From NCBI GenBank assembly GCA_013359345.1, contig JABWCA010000003.1:1-43226 (forward strand): a DNA stretch of 43,226 bases. Direction: 5' to 3'. Shown here in pieces: positions 2,810 to 43,226 of the stretch (its first letter is position 1; each line of letters starts with the position of its first letter). The DNA is from Ignavibacteriaceae bacterium (GTDB taxonomy: Bacteria > Bacteroidota > Ignavibacteria > Ignavibacteriales > Ignavibacteriaceae). The notes under the pieces are model-generated. The model searched no databases, was not told the DNA's origin, and saw only the letters and a list, made by a program, of their open reading frames with translations. A program made the position numbers and the translations under genes.

Positions 2810-4044
2810 TGAAAAAAGTTTTTTATTTTCTTCTGATTATATTTTTAACAAACAGTGTATATGCCCAGCGTGATATTGAAAAAATGCTTGAAGGCTCATA
2901 TTCACCCGATGAAATTATTACTATTTCTCAGTATATAAGTTACGACAAAGCCATTGAACTGCTCAGTAAGGTTTCTGAGAAAGTGGCCGGTAAAAAGATT
3001 GTTTCTCAGATTGAATCACAATCACCCATCGGGGTTGATCTTGTCAGTTTTCCTTACAAAAAAGCATTGCTTGTCATAGTTCAGTTGTTTGGTTATGTTT
3101 ATGAAGAACAGCCTGATGTGATTGTGGTTAAAAAACCTGTTGTGACAAAAGAAGCTGAACCCAAAGATAAAGAAACCTATGCAGCCGTTAACAGCAGACA
3201 GGTTAAAATAAGTGCTGTGTTCTTTGAAACAGATGATGCCGCATTGCGTGAAAGAGGCATCAACTGGAAATTCCTCCTTTCAGGTTCAGACAAGAACTAC
3301 GGCATAGACCTGAGAACTTTTGGTGAAGTTGAACAGGGTTCAACCACGGTTCCGAATGATTTCAAGCTGAATGCCGACTGGAAATTTGACCTCGGTGAAT
3401 TTGCCGGCGATGCTGTTTCCCTGTTCCGTTTTTTTGAGAGCGAAAACCTGGGCGAGATTATTGCACAGCCTTCAGTTACCGTAAGAGACAAGGAGAAAGG
3501 AAGAATTCAGATCGGTTCTGATTATTCAATTAAGCAGAGAGATTTTGCGGGTAACGTTACTGATCAGTTTTTCTCAACCGGTTCTATAATCGAAGTAACG
3601 CCATACATATACAAAGAAAATGATATAGATTATGTACTTCTTAATCTTACCGTTGAAAGAAGTTCTGCGTTTCCCGGTGAAGTATCAACCGAAATCAGGA
3701 AAACAAGCGCTAAAACAAACGTACTTATGCTTGATGGTTCTGAGACGGTGATAGGAGGGCTTTACATCACGGATGAGGCAGTTGTAAGAACAGGAATACC
3801 GTTTTTAAAGGATTTACCCTGGTGGGTGCTGGGAATCAGATATCTCACCGGCAGTGACCGTATTCAGATGACAAAAAAAGAAATTATTATTGTTATCCGT
3901 GCTGAGCTGCTGCCCACTTTAGAGGAGCAAAAAAATATGCTGCTCAAAAAAGATGCATTAAAAGATAAAATTCAGGAACATCGTGATACTTATAACAAGG
4001 TTAAAGAGAGTTCCCCTAATTATAACCCCGAAGAAATTAAATAA
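2806..4044 (+). CDS. Short secretin (PilQ/GspD family) outer-membrane channel
   Basis: The 412-residue product starts with a signal peptide (cleavage after about residue 20, VYAQ). An STN/N0-like domain follows at about 45-105, then the secretin domain at about 130-385. Clear secretin landmarks are IAQPSVTVRDKE, the IEVTPYIY strand, the VIGGLY motif followed by GIPFLKDLPWWV, and the closing KKEIIIVIRAELLP. Secretins form multimeric outer-membrane pores. This one is short because it lacks the usual several N1/N2 ring domains between N0 and the barrel. The start overlaps the preceding stop (ATGATG), with AAGGAG at 2795-2800 as ribosome site; either of the two adjacent ATGs could serve. A charged tail of about 40 residues follows the secretin domain. 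Confidence 0.85.
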   Translation: MMKKVFYFLLIIFLTNSVYAQRDIEKMLEGSYSPDEIITISQYISYDKAIELLSKVSEKVAGKKIVSQIESQSPIGVDLVSFPYKKALLVIVQLFGYVYEEQPDVIVVKKPVVTKEAEPKDKETYAAVNSRQVKISAVFFETDDAALRERGINWKFLLSGSDKNYGIDLRTFGEVEQGSTTVPNDFKLNADWKFDLGEFAGDAVSLFRFFESENLGEIIAQPSVTVRDKEKGRIQIGSDYSIKQRDFAGNVTDQFFSTGSIIEVTPYIYKENDIDYVLLNLTVERSSAFPGEVSTEIRKTSAKTNVLMLDGSETVIGGLYITDEAVVRTGIPFLKDLPWWVLGIRYLTGSDRIQMTKKEIIIVIRAELLPTLEEQKNMLLKKDALKDKIQEHRDTYNKVKESSPNYNPEEIK

Positions 4045-38212: not shown

Positions 38213-40192
38213 ATGCTTGATCTCATTAATGTTTCTCTCCAGTTCGGCGGCGAATACCTCTACCGTAATGTCAGCCTTAAAATCAACAAACTTGACAGAT
38301 TCTGTCTCGTAGGTGCAAACGGCACAGGAAAATCCTCGCTGCTCAAACTCATCAATGGCGAACTCCCCCCTGAATCGGGTGATATCAGTAAAAAGAAGAA
38401 TCTCAGGATAGGTTATCTTCCCCAGGATAATGTAACACACAAAGGGAAGAAACTGCTTGAGGAGGTACTTTCGGGATTATCTGAAATTCAGACACTTCAG
38501 GAACGTGAAAAAGAGATTCATACCCTGCTGGAAGACCCTGCTCATTCAAAAGATGGTGACAGCGCTCTGCTCCAGGAACTCGGCGAAATTCAGCACCGGC
38601 TGATTGACCTCGATTCATACTCCGCAGAATCAAGAGCCGAAAAAATTCTTAAAGGGCTCGGATTCTCTGAGGAGGAATTTGACAGACAGTGTGAGGAATT
38701 CTCCGGCGGATGGCAGATGAGAATTGCGCTCGCTAAAATCCTCCTTTCAAAAAATGAAATTCTCCTTTTGGATGAACCCACCAACCACCTTGATCTCGAA
38801 TCGCTGGCATGGCTGGTGTCATTTCTCAGATCATTTGAGGGAGGCCTGATTGTCGTTTCTCACGACCGCTATTTCGTAAATCAGGTTACAAACAAAACTC
38901 TTGAAATATATCTCAACAAATTCAATGTGTTTAACGGCAACTATGATGCTTACCTCAAATTCAAAGAGGAGCGTGACCGTCTTACAGAGAGCCAGTACAT
39001 TCAGCAGCAAAAGTTTCTCAAGGAAAAGCAGCGTTTCATTGAGCGCTTCAGATACAAATCAAGCAAGGCAAGACAAGTTCAGAGCGTTATCAAACAGATT
39101 GACAAAATTGATCTGATTGAACTTCCCGATGATCAGAACCAGATAAAATTCAGGTTCCCGGTCCCTCCCCCCTCCGGAAAGACTGTAATGGAGCTGAATA
39201 AAATCGGTTTCTCATATCCGGGTAAGCCGATTTTCAGAGATTTTGATTTTACCATCTCCAAAGGTGAAAAAATAGCCTTCGTGGGACCCAACGGAGCAGG
39301 CAAGACAACTCTGGCAAAAATCATAGCAGGCAAGCTTGATGTTCAGCAAGGACATCGTATGCCCGGTTATAACGTTTCAATATCCCATTTTGCCCAGGAT
39401 GTTTACGATGATCTCGATACAGAACTCGATATCATGGATACAATCTATTCAGTCTCAGAGGGGCTTTCAATTCCACAGGTGAGAGCACTGTTGGGCTGCT
39501 TCCTTTTCACAGGTGATGATGTGTTTAAGAAGGTCGGTGTGCTTTCAGGCGGAGAAAAAAGCCGCGTTGCACTTATTAAAATACTCCTGCAGAAATCAAA
39601 CCTGCTTATTTTTGACGAACCCACCAACCATCTCGATTTTGCCAGCAAACAGATACTGCAGAATGCACTTATTGAGTTCACCGGCACAATAATCATTGTT
39701 TCACACGATATTGATTTCCTTAAATCTGTTGTTAACCGTGTTGTGGAAATAAACAGAACCGGTGTTAAAGATTATCCCGGTGATTTTGATTATTATCTTT
39801 ATAAAAAATCACTCCTCACAGAAAATTTATCTGAAGCAAACCAGTCGGCTTCAGCATCCCAAGCTGAGGGTAAACTTGTTAACAGAAAAGATGTAAAAAG
39901 ACTTGAGGCTGAACTCCGTCAGCAGAAGTACAAAGAAACAAAAGACCTTTCTGCAAAACTGAAAAATGTTGAGGATAAGATCCATGCTTCTGAAAAGTTA
40001 ATAACTGAATTTGAAACTGAATTTGCTGCCGGGGAAATCTACAGCAACCCTGATCTTGCCAGAGAAAAAACCACCCGCTATAATGATGAAAAATCTGTGC
40101 TTGATACTCTGATGCTTGAGTGGGAGGAAGTATCTTCCAGACTGGATGAGATAGAAGCTGCATACAAAGAAAAATTTGACGCTCTTGGGTAA
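38213..40192 (+). CDS. ABC-F family ATPase (ribosome-associated)
   Basis: The 659-residue soluble protein has two ABC domains and no membrane segment. Domain 1 has Walker A GANGTGKSS (34-42), signature FSGGWQMRIALAK and LLLDEPTNHLD. Domain 2 has GPNGAGKTT near 360, LSGGEKSRVALIK and LIFDEPTNHLD. The linker between them is rich in charged residues (KFLKEKQRFIERFRYKSSKARQ), the position that reaches into the ribosomal P site in ABC-F factors. A C-terminal coiled coil (about 565-655) resembles Uup. Such proteins relieve stalled or misaligned ribosomes; some confer antibiotic resistance, which cannot be judged here. Confidence 0.95.
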   Translation: MLDLINVSLQFGGEYLYRNVSLKINKLDRFCLVGANGTGKSSLLKLINGELPPESGDISKKKNLRIGYLPQDNVTHKGKKLLEEVLSGLSEIQTLQEREKEIHTLLEDPAHSKDGDSALLQELGEIQHRLIDLDSYSAESRAEKILKGLGFSEEEFDRQCEEFSGGWQMRIALAKILLSKNEILLLDEPTNHLDLESLAWLVSFLRSFEGGLIVVSHDRYFVNQVTNKTLEIYLNKFNVFNGNYDAYLKFKEERDRLTESQYIQQQKFLKEKQRFIERFRYKSSKARQVQSVIKQIDKIDLIELPDDQNQIKFRFPVPPPSGKTVMELNKIGFSYPGKPIFRDFDFTISKGEKIAFVGPNGAGKTTLAKIIAGKLDVQQGHRMPGYNVSISHFAQDVYDDLDTELDIMDTIYSVSEGLSIPQVRALLGCFLFTGDDVFKKVGVLSGGEKSRVALIKILLQKSNLLIFDEPTNHLDFASKQILQNALIEFTGTIIIVSHDIDFLKSVVNRVVEINRTGVKDYPGDFDYYLYKKSLLTENLSEANQSASASQAEGKLVNRKDVKRLEAELRQQKYKETKDLSAKLKNVEDKIHASEKLITEFETEFAAGEIYSNPDLAREKTTRYNDEKSVLDTLMLEWEEVSSRLDEIEAAYKEKFDALG

Positions 40193-40717: not shown

Positions 40718-41143
40718 ATGAAAACGAATCACAGTCTCATCATTTTTCTGTTCATCCTGCTTGCAGGGAGCCTTTATTCACAAAACCGTTTTGAAAGGTG
40801 GAATGGTGTATTCGAAGGGGCAAATAAACAACGGGCAATCAGATTTATTGTGGAACAGGAGGTAATTGATGGAAACGGTTCCCTGGGTGATCCTTCTTTC
40901 AGGTTTTTTGAGGCCCCCGGTTTAAATGAGTTTAGCGAACGGTTCTTAACGCTTGATCCAAGTGATCTTAAATATACAGATAACGTGGCAACATTTAAGT
41001 TACTGATCAAAGGAAAATCAGGGGTTACCCGCACTTTAGATGTCGAATTCAGAAGGGGTGCAGATCCTAAAGATGACATTTATTTAATAAATGACCGGAA
41101 TACTTCCTGGAAAACGGCCATCACTCTGAAGAGGAAAAATTAA
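40718..41143 (+). CDS. Small secreted protein, tandem paralogue 1
   Basis: The 141-residue product has a signal peptide ending LAGSLYSQ, followed by the family block NRFERWNGVFEG (22-33). The mature part is predicted to be mostly beta strands. It shares with paralogues 2 and 3 a G-x-N-G-x-L/E-x-x-x-P-x-F pattern in the middle, a VEFRRGADPKDDIYLI segment, and a basic end TLKRKN. GGAG lies 9 bases before the ATG. There are no cysteines in the mature part and no catalytic motif. I do not recognise the family. It is the first of four copies in a row on this strand. Confidence 0.72.
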   Translation: MKTNHSLIIFLFILLAGSLYSQNRFERWNGVFEGANKQRAIRFIVEQEVIDGNGSLGDPSFRFFEAPGLNEFSERFLTLDPSDLKYTDNVATFKLLIKGKSGVTRTLDVEFRRGADPKDDIYLINDRNTSWKTAITLKRKN

Positions 41144-41532
41144 TATTCTGCAATCGGGGAAGCAGAAAATTCCTTGCAGATTCATAAGTAATTGGAATAA
41201 TTCTTTCATCTGTTAAACCCTATACGGCTCTGCCACTTAAATCAGGAGAAAGTTTTCTTTGAGGATTTTTGCGGAACGGAAGACTGGTGGTATTTTCTCC
41301 AGGTAATGGGCTGAATTTAGAATGAAAGCTTTAATTCTGTTGAAAAGCTCAATTGCATCGGAAGGAATTCTTCTCAGAGCTTAATCAGCAATGTTTTTAC
41401 AGTTATTCAACCCGGGTTAACTAACCCTTACAAGTAAAGATCTGCTTAAAATTAAAGGCAAAAAAAATAAGGCAACATCTATCAGTCAATTTATCTGATA
41501 ATCAGTTACAGACATCTTAATCAGGAGCATAA
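41144..41532. other. Intergenic region between paralogues 1 and 2
   Basis: This 389-base gap has no plausible gene and no clear remnant of a further paralogue. A 10-base palindrome AACCCGGGTT lies at 41409-41418 and overlaps a second small inverted repeat GGGTT/AACCC. It is far longer than the 78- and 69-base gaps between the later copies. Confidence 0.5.
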
Positions 41533-41964
41533 ATGAAAACAAAACTATTCATAATTTTTCTTTTTATCCTGCTTGCAGGAAGCCTTTATTCACAAAACCA
41601 GTATGAAAGATGGAACGGAGTCTTTGAAGGTGGGAGCGGGAACTACTCATTTATCTTTGATGTATACCAACAGACAATCGGTATTAACGGCGAAAAAAGT
41701 TCACCGATTTTTACTGTTCACAGGTTACAGAGGGGAAAAAAGATTACTTTAACCCGGGATGTATCTGCCAGGGACATCTCACCTGAGAAAGACTTTACTC
41801 TTTACACTACAGGCATGAACCGAACCGGCGGAAAACCCCTCCTTAATGCTTCTTTCAAACAAGGTGCTGCCCCAAAGGATGACACTTATGAAATATCGAA
41901 ATATTTTGGATTTCCGTCCGGGGAGGAAGACTTCAGTACGATTGTGCTTAAAAGAGTTAAATAA
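41533..41964 (+). CDS. Small secreted protein, tandem paralogue 2
   Basis: The 143-residue product has the signal peptide FLFILLAGSLYSQ, nearly identical to paralogue 1, then NQYERWNGVFEG. Further shared segments are IGINGEKSSPIFTV, SFKQGAAPKDDTYEI and the basic end VLKRVK. AGGAG lies 8 bases before the ATG. The strongly conserved signal peptide and first 12 mature residues, against a diverging middle, suggest duplication followed by fast change in the body. Function is unknown. Confidence 0.72.
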   Translation: MKTKLFIIFLFILLAGSLYSQNQYERWNGVFEGGSGNYSFIFDVYQQTIGINGEKSSPIFTVHRLQRGKKITLTRDVSARDISPEKDFTLYTTGMNRTGGKPLLNASFKQGAAPKDDTYEISKYFGFPSGEEDFSTIVLKRVK

Positions 41965-42042
41965 TCTCCCGGAAATTGAAGTGTTATCAGATATTGGACT
42001 GTATAAAACATTAATTATTAATTAAACCGGATAACTACACAA

Positions 42043-42504
42043 ATGAAAACAAAACACATTTTCGTCATTTTTCTTTTTTTCTTAACAGTTAATCTTTTAT
42101 CCCAGAACAAGTATGAAAGAATGAACGGGATTTTTGAAGGCAGCTCGGCCCCCTTATCAGATGATATGCCCGGTGCAGTGTATTACTTTAAATTTGAAGT
42201 CTGGCAAGATATAATTGGGGCAAATGGGGAGTTGAGTCAACCAAATTTCAGAATTTACAACGGGATTCAGGGTAATGAGCCATTTGTTCTCATGGAACAA
42301 GCGAGGGCAATTAATAGCGGGGATTATAATCCCGATGAAGTGATTGTCTTACAAGGAGGCGGGCGTCAGGGTGAACCGTCCTTCAGAATTGAATGCCGGT
42401 TCATCCGGGGTACTTCCCGAAATGAAGATAAGTATGTGATAGATCTGTTTGACTTTGTTGGAGCGTGGGATTTTCAACCCGTCACTATCCATAGAATTAA
42501 ATAA
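42043..42504 (+). CDS. Small secreted protein, tandem paralogue 3
   Basis: The 153-residue product has a signal peptide ending TVNLLSQ, then NKYERMNGIFEG. It shares IIGANGELSQPNFRIY with paralogue 2 and has CRFIRGTSRNEDKYVI where the others have RGADPKDDIYLI or QGAAPKDDTYEI. It ends TIHRIK. It is the longest and most diverged of the three complete copies, with an extra loop (SSAPLSDDMPG) after the first block. It starts 78 bases after paralogue 2 and probably shares a transcript with it. No ribosome site of the GGAG type is visible. Confidence 0.7.
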   Translation: MKTKHIFVIFLFFLTVNLLSQNKYERMNGIFEGSSAPLSDDMPGAVYYFKFEVWQDIIGANGELSQPNFRIYNGIQGNEPFVLMEQARAINSGDYNPDEVIVLQGGGRQGEPSFRIECRFIRGTSRNEDKYVIDLFDFVGAWDFQPVTIHRIK

Positions 42505-42573
42505 TGATTTAGTGGGACTTAAAATCCTTTTAATAATTTATCTGATTTTTTTCCTTCAAACAGGGCAATACAA

Positions 42574-42708
42574 ATGAGGACAATACACTGTTTAATCCTT
42601 TCTATGTTTTTCTTCACGGGTACTCTTCTGTCCCAGAATCAGTATGACAGAATGAAGGAAACAGGAAGCAGGAGGCAGGATGCGGGAAGCAGGAAGCAAG
42701 AACAGTGA
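42574..42708 (+). pseudogene. Paralogue 4, truncated and fused to heptamer repeats
   Basis: The ATG at 42574 opens a 44-codon frame. Residues 1-27 are a good family N-terminus: a signal peptide ending TGTLLSQ, then NQYDRM, aligned with NKYERM of paralogue 3. At base 42657 the homology stops and the frame runs into 7-base repeats, giving KETGSRRQDAGSRKQEQ and a TGA at 42706. The breakpoint coincides with the first repeat unit. Downstream, GAATTAAATAAT at 43041 matches the end of paralogue 3 (42493) and may be a remnant of the original 3' end. I treat it as a broken gene; a short secreted peptide is not excluded. Confidence 0.7.
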
Positions 42709-42737
42709 GTAGTGAGCAGAGAACAGGAAACAAGCAG
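42657..42737 (+). repeat. Degenerate 7-base tandem repeat, GGAARCA type, tract 1
   Basis: Successive heptamers are GGAAACA, GGAAGCA, GGAGGCA, GGATGCG, GGAAGCA, GGAAGCA, AGAACAG, TGAGTAG, TGAGCAG, AGAACAG and GAAACAA. All keep the 7-base phase from 42657 to 42733. Beyond that the sequence shifts to an 8-base pattern around GTATGGTG (to about 42768). Confidence 0.85.
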
Positions 42738-42804: not shown

Positions 42805-42870
42805 GGTGCATTATGCCGGTTACCACTGTCGAAATGCTTTTCGGCTGTGAAATGCTTAGAACCGAAAGAA

Positions 42871-42947
42871 GGAAACAGGAGGCAAGATGCGGGATACAGG
42901 ACACAGGATGAAGGAAACAGGGGGTAAGATGCAGGAGTCAGGAATCA
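42871..42947 (+). repeat. 7-base tandem repeat, GGAARCA type, tract 3
   Basis: Eleven heptamers in unbroken phase: GGAAACA, GGAGGCA, AGATGCG, GGATACA, GGACACA, GGATGAA, GGAAACA, GGGGGTA, AGATGCA, GGAGTCA and GGAATCA. Substitutions are common but there is no insertion or deletion. Confidence 0.85.
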
Positions 42948-43063
42948 TTTCACCCTGGGCTGGTGGTGAATTGACAGATCAGTCAACACGGAATTCATCA
43001 GTCAAAAGACAACTGATAGCACCCATTGATATGAACGCATGAATTAAATAATTTTCAGGCTCA

Positions 43064-43096
43064 GGCAGCGTACAACTTCATTTATGCTGCCTTTTT
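43064..43096 (+). terminator. Rho-independent terminator closing the paralogue array
   Basis: GGCAGC (43064-43069) pairs with GCTGCC (43086-43091), with a further A-T pair available, around a 16-base loop. TTTTT follows at 43092-43096. It ends just before the second heptamer tract, and would be the natural end of the array transcript. Confidence 0.75.
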
Positions 43097-43098
43097 CA

Positions 43099-43226
43099 AC
43101 GAACAACGAACAACGAGTAACGATTTACGGTCAACGAGCAACGAACAACGAGCAACGATCTACGGTCAACGAGCAACGAACAACGAACAACGAACAACGA
43201 GTAACGATTTACGGTCAACGAGCAAC
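43099..43226 (+). repeat. 7-base tandem repeat, ACGNNNN type, 18 units, running off the window
   Basis: From 43099 to 43224 there are 18 complete heptamers, every one beginning ACG, without a phase slip. The types are ACGAACA, ACGAGCA, ACGAGTA, ACGATTT, ACGATCT and ACGGTCA. The block of units 3-6 (ending types GTA, TTT, GTCA, GCA) is repeated exactly as units 15-18, and units 8-11 are a close variant. The tract continues past the window edge. No open frame of note runs through it. Confidence 0.92.

Follow-up and report, generated by a model that had tools for sequence, protein, structure and literature searches.

Introduction

Heterocystous cyanobacteria carry the STRR sequences, degenerate tandem heptamers dispersed in the genome, whose word differs from that of the ACG family described below. 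More generally, passages of the SPADE survey of 7006 prokaryotic genomes present tandem heptamers as the commonest intergenic tandem repeats, of unknown function (PMC6344855). The array analysed here belongs to the class treated in those passages, which give no word families, polarity or motifs.

The closest described systems are the GGGAATC and GGGGA(C/T)T heptamer arrays of Xanthomonas and Nostoc (Rehm 2015, PMC4692102) and the TAACTGA direct repeats of Beggiatoaceae, cyanobacteria and some Bacteroidetes (MacGregor 2015, PMC4679880). As portrayed in the passages of the former paper that concern them, the Xanthomonas and Nostoc repeats share with the present array an intergenic position, tandem 7-bp units that are heterogeneous around conserved core positions, and a large number of copies; they also lie near or overlap stop codons with one strand polarity, and vary in length between relatives. 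They differ from it in their word and in forming G-quadruplexes, and those passages mention no constant neighbouring motif. The TAACTGA repeats are likewise intergenic tandem heptamers oriented to gene ends, some of them overlapping stops. In contrast to the ACG array, however, their unit is near-invariant, is mostly present in 2-6 copies, and is mostly found just upstream of starts. The idea of slippage set by the footprint or contacts of the polymerase is credited to Mrazek 2007 in passages of both papers (PMC4692102, PMC4679880). Intergenic heptamers are therefore known and widespread (PMC6344855, PMC4692102, PMC4679880), and a shared mechanism tied to period 7 is already an existing view.

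Results

A degenerate heptamer array at the end of a contig

The window, that is, the whole stretch of 43,226 nucleotides analysed here, is the complete contig C363 of a draft genome of 4.26 Mb in 454 contigs. Its right end comprises the following elements:

43063..43096, + strand: terminator-like hairpin and T run, the 3' arm being the constant motif
43079..43089, + strand: constant motif CATTTATGCTG
43097..43226, + strand: ACGNNNN heptamer array of 18 units, cut by the contig end

Period-7 identity begins at 43097, and 18 complete in-phase units followed by AC fill 43099-43226; the contig of this draft assembly stops within the array, whose true length is at least 18 units. The first-pass annotation had described 18 in-phase ACGNNNN heptamers of about six types, and this description holds. 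ACG is invariant in 18/18 units, position 4 is A or G, position 5 is A, G or T, position 6 is C or T, and position 7 is A or T. The six unit types are a (ACGAACA), b (ACGAGTA), c (ACGATTT), d (ACGGTCA), e (ACGAGCA) and f (ACGATCT). Such a run is far above chance: 60 order-2 Markov copies of the window reached at most 3 ACG units in phase. From 43099, the order of units is aabcdeaefdeaaabcde. Units 3-6 (bcde) are identical to units 15-18, as had been noted, and units 8-11 (efde) are a variant that differs from bcde by two C/T exchanges. This order is best parsed as 35-bp blocks, namely abcde / aefde / aa / abcde, in agreement with Tandem Repeats Finder, which also scores a 35-bp period of five units (3.7 copies, 85% match). 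The unit order and this longer period thus bear out the earlier view that larger blocks were copied besides single units.

With exactly 7-bp tandem units in an intergenic position, the array has the hallmarks of the heptamer class. No GGG occurs in its ACGNNNN units, as opposed to the runs of at least three G that characterize the G-quadruplex subtype of Xanthomonas and Nostoc, and it folds no better than shuffled sequences, as opposed to the palindromic units of REP/BIME elements. At the loci seen, ACG arrays sit behind genes, and none lies within a promoter or a reading frame.

Heptamer families in this and other genomes

A pattern of four in-phase ACG units gives 61 overlapping matches genome-wide on both strands, versus 1 for the reversed pattern, and the family is dispersed over about 20 loci. 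The first-pass annotation had proposed to list all such tracts, with a single tract in the genome counting against its reading; the number of loci removes that objection. It also bears on the notion that the assembler produced the length and order of the array, which reaches the contig end, as do many copies of the family. The roughly 20 loci are separate and have unique flanks, and the same class of repeat is found in single-contig and cultured genomes; an assembly artefact is thus hardly credible.

Period 7 stands out in this genome. In 405 kb, drawn from repeat-matching contigs such that heptamer density is overestimated, there are 13 strict period-7 regions, 3 of period 9 and 2 of period 10, with 0 at periods 2-6, 8 and 11-13; periods 14 and 21 were treated as harmonics of 7, and a Markov control gave 0 at all periods. 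Because several heptamer words occur in the genome (ACG, AGG, AGT, TTGAAC/TCGAAC, CATAACT and CCTAAAC), this contrast between periods is not due to the ACG word alone. The genome, with many copies and an over-represented period 7, therefore conforms to the class as well. Two further arrays lie in the window:

42644..42736, + strand: AGG/AGT heptamer array, beginning within a gene remnant
42864..42943, + strand: second AGG heptamer array

These are the second heptamer family that had been reported less than 200 bases away, from which a mechanism common to two unrelated families and tied to period 7 had been proposed. The period is indeed general in the genome, but the idea restates an existing view, and the families need not be unrelated. 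CAACGAR, CAGGAAR and CAGTGAR have CA..AR in common, and AGG and AGT words are intermixed nearly in phase within a homologous block on contig C22; judging from these words, the ACG and AGG/AGT families are possibly akin.

Beyond this genome, the matches listed for ACGANCA arrays include many phyla. Six in-phase ACG units occur in 46/296 genomes of the phylum, and the reversed core is present in about 69 (a hand count). The ACG core as a special conserved signal was rejected, since the reversed core is at least as common in the phylum and strict ACGANCA arrays are found in only 4/395 of its genomes. Individual heptamer words are thus sporadic, and period 7 is general. In one single-contig record (G025 C1), ACGAGAA arrays are located at 3713 and 3665708, near both ends, the second position falling in the contig's final bases.

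These distributions can be set against the possibility that a DNA- or RNA-binding protein recognizes the ACG core, repeated every 7 bp. The invariance of ACG in the window array would suit such sites, and MacGregor proposes cold-shock-type proteins for the TAACTGA heptamers (PMC4679880). Core words, however, vary between genomes, several cores coexist within one genome, and any single core is as sporadic as the ACGANCA arrays are. An array of protein-binding sites is accordingly a very unlikely explanation. Invariance of ACG next to variable positions 4-7 could reflect selection, but block copying leaves a handful of independent events.

A constant motif on one side of the arrays

Alignment of the ACG loci shows that most ACG arrays of this genome are preceded by TTTATGCTG or a near variant. 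The combined pattern TTTATGCTGNNACG has 20 copies in the genome, versus 1 for the reversed control; the window copy, in which the gap to the first ACG is longer, is outside these 20. In 58 relatives the same pattern is at chance level, with 0 to 2 copies per genome. An 81-base version of the motif-heptamer unit gives 22 matches here and matches one relative only, weakly, over 27 bases. The motif TTTATGCTG, enriched together with ACG in this genome alone by comparison with the 58 relatives, is new here. Motif plus heptamers is itself tandemly repeated on C423, C446, C82, C164 and C201.

In the window, the motif is part of a hairpin. A 10-bp stem (43063-43072/43083-43092) encloses a 10-nt loop and is followed by TTTTT, in support of the earlier claim that a terminator directly precedes the array. 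The hairpin is kept on C22, where an A-to-G change leaves a G-U pair. Since the motif is the 3' arm of this hairpin, the array and the 'terminator' are parts of one unit. A simple promoter and terminator scan returned no matches in the window, the hairpin being missed because of its loop length.

Several other sequences accompany ACG heptamers. A longer dispersed repeat, ...GCATTGCGTCTCTACGGATACCACCGATTTTTTCAACCATTTATGCTG..ACG heptamers, is found on C82, C164, C201, C274 and C444 (loci L207, L018, L272, L208 and L273); it contains a GAGACGCAA/TTGCGTCTC palindrome, and 11 or more near-full copies are present, many of them located at contig ends. On C242, C275, C330 and C346, a sequence with a period of about 10 bp (AACACGAATnAAACGAATnAGGCGAAT) lies beyond the TTTATGCTG motif. 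In Pollutibacter soli, GGCTGTT flanks the ACG arrays (L049, L061, L065, L070 and L071) and may be a further motif of the genome-specific kind.

A stop codon on the other side

At 11/19 loci, a convergent gene ends close to the array edge opposite the motif, with its stop codon at a distance of 0-13 bp (C5, C22, C166, C229, C242, C275, C330, C346, C423, C434 and C416). The 19 loci are those with a known right neighbour, counted by hand, and C22 is counted by its last degenerate units. The motif-side edge is that near a stop codon at 0/19 loci. Random intergenic placement gives 3% stop abutment (binomial tail <1e-8). This stop-codon edge opposite the motif is also new here; the polarity at gene ends is seen family-wide in this genome, the far edge of the window copy itself lying beyond the contig end.

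At C423 and C22, the heptamers and the TGA stop overlap. The idea that the array at C423 had shortened its host gene was considered and rejected, because the C423 protein and its orthologues terminate at nearly the same point, to within a few residues. An association of the arrays with one gene family was also rejected: the adjoining genes are unrelated, and an apparent similarity of about 490 aa among them is a product of loci cut at 1500 bp.

In the sense of the adjoining gene, the mRNA would read stop - (UUCGUUG)n - CAGCAUAAAUG. The arrays might be a functional 3'-UTR element that affects the preceding gene through termination, mRNA stability or translation. Their fixed orientation close to the stops of unrelated genes speaks for such an element, as do the terminator-like hairpin at the window copy and the treatment, in passages of PMC4692102, of transcribed heptamers near stop codons. 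However, little structure is predicted for the downstream array, the entire segment folds no better than shuffles (z 1.28), and there is no Rfam match; a known RNA family was accordingly rejected. The element is moreover missing behind orthologous genes in relatives, 8 of the approximately 20 loci do not abut a stop, and arrays in other genomes also adjoin start codons, in antisense. On balance, we judge a 3'-UTR function unlikely.

Polarity in other words and genomes

The orientation of the arrays can be put as a rule, which is Rehm's bias restated: on the strand in which G exceeds C, it is the 5' end of the array that faces the gene. Among ACGANCA arrays from other phyla, with genes taken as ORFs of at least 150 aa, 21 have a gene boundary no more than 20 bp from the corresponding edge (13 stops and 8 starts), and 3 have one that near to the opposite edge. 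All heptamer arrays in these loci give 30 versus 9, mostly from the same loci and so not independent. In other genomes of the phylum the count within 20 bp is 16 versus 3; these arrays are mostly from G324, on which the rule was partly formed, and the test is therefore not blind. Where the G-strand 5' side faces a stop in stretches of the phylum, the distance is within 20 bp in 15/20 cases, versus 1/18 for the 3' side (Fisher P ~1e-5). Genes in these counts are long ORFs rather than annotation, and start counts are the less reliable because the caller takes the farthest start. G-strand heptamers often hold stop codons, which favours stop-abutting cases. Counting only stops strictly ahead of the array still gives 27 to 11; stops within G-rich heptamers, checked as a pure artefact, thus explain the bias only partly. 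That arrays of other words and in other genomes meet genes mainly by the 5' end of their G-rich strand extends the bias published for Xanthomonas and Nostoc, and is new here.

In G324, heptamer arrays also occur as inverted pairs 20-120 bp apart (L213 16555-16702, L214 17355-17528, L215 5975-6217 and L219 12978-13209); the pair on L215 occupies the gap between two genes, leaving 2 bp after the first and 7 bp ahead of the second.

Taken at its strongest, the rule would state that in many bacteria, whatever the word, arrays always face the gene with the 5' end of their G-rich strand, and that they arise directionally, here from TTTATGCTG. We regard this as unlikely; if true, units would be added from a fixed end by one process until halted by coding sequence. 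In a more specific form, arrays would extend from the constant motif geneward and replace sequence until coding sequence halts them. The one-sided abutment here, the G-strand polarity elsewhere, the heptamer-supplied stops at C423 and C22, and a remnant gene in which AGG units take the place of the 3' part (see below) are all consistent with such growth. Yet no replacement is seen in progress, the C423 gene is not shortened, stops inside G-strand heptamers could yield part of the polarity, and insertion with tolerance at gene ends fits equally well. Growth by replacement is therefore quite unlikely.

A lineage-specific insertion with a gene remnant

To the left of the array, the locus contains:

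38213..40192, + strand: ABC-F-type ATPase gene, bordering the lineage-specific insertion on its left
40718-41143, 41533-41964 and 42043-42504, + strand: three intact paralogous genes with signal-peptide-like N termini
42574..42708, + strand: truncated fourth paralogue, 27-28 neighbour-like codons followed by heptamer-encoded residues and a heptamer-supplied TGA

In the seven relatives checked, the ABC-F gene is directly followed by a convergent ROK kinase gene, with a spacing of about 56 bp in G007. Here the ROK kinase gene sits on C22, which is thus the natural right neighbour of the window; from this synteny, the DNA between the two genes is lineage-specific. No orthologous window locus was found in other genera beyond the ABC-F gene region, and the two intact paralogues tested have no Pfam match. 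The window also encodes a PorZ/T9SS-like protein, which points to Bacteroidota. In the tandem family of small secreted-type paralogues (window 40718-42708 and L271 19-153), two copies are truncated by heptamers at the same codon. The position of the array, by synteny, in a lineage-specific insertion separating the ABC-F and ROK kinase genes, next to a remnant fused to AGG heptamers, is new here.

Contig C22 carries a second copy of the remnant block and then a GAF-PP2C gene, with an ACG array between the remnant and the PP2C gene. The two blocks are 85% alike in an overall alignment with gaps, and their flanks are 85-90% alike. The first ACG units are common to both, but there are about 7 units on C22 versus at least 18 in the window. 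Since unit number differs between flanks this similar, the array turns over faster than its flanks. Given the divergence, tandem duplication of the remnant block would be likelier than two haplotypes.

Discussion

We consider it probable that the ACG arrays are a genome-specific degenerate heptamer family of a known class, shaped by misaligned copying, by dispersal of motif plus heptamers, and by tolerance up to the genes. According to this explanation, the motif with a few heptamers would first have been dispersed as a small repeat and then expanded locally. Length and unit order would change as single units and blocks of several units, such as the five-unit blocks of the window, are miscopied by slippage or unequal recombination. 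Arrays would be tolerated up to coding sequence and rarely into it, such that one edge is fixed at gene ends. The spreading step is needed because unrelated loci share one word family, which slippage, amplifying local sequence only, does not explain; neither does slippage alone account for the polarity at gene ends. For the spread of the motif-heptamer unit, neither an enzyme nor a target-site duplication was found. A function of the arrays is not required by the evidence.

Passages of the SPADE survey indicate that these heptamers, the commonest class of bacterial intergenic tandem repeats, have neither an agreed origin nor an agreed function (PMC6344855). A family bounded by a constant motif at one edge and a stop codon at the other provides a concrete anatomy for this class. 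Any mechanism must accommodate the polarity, which recurs over many unrelated words and several phyla and is directly testable in annotated genomes.
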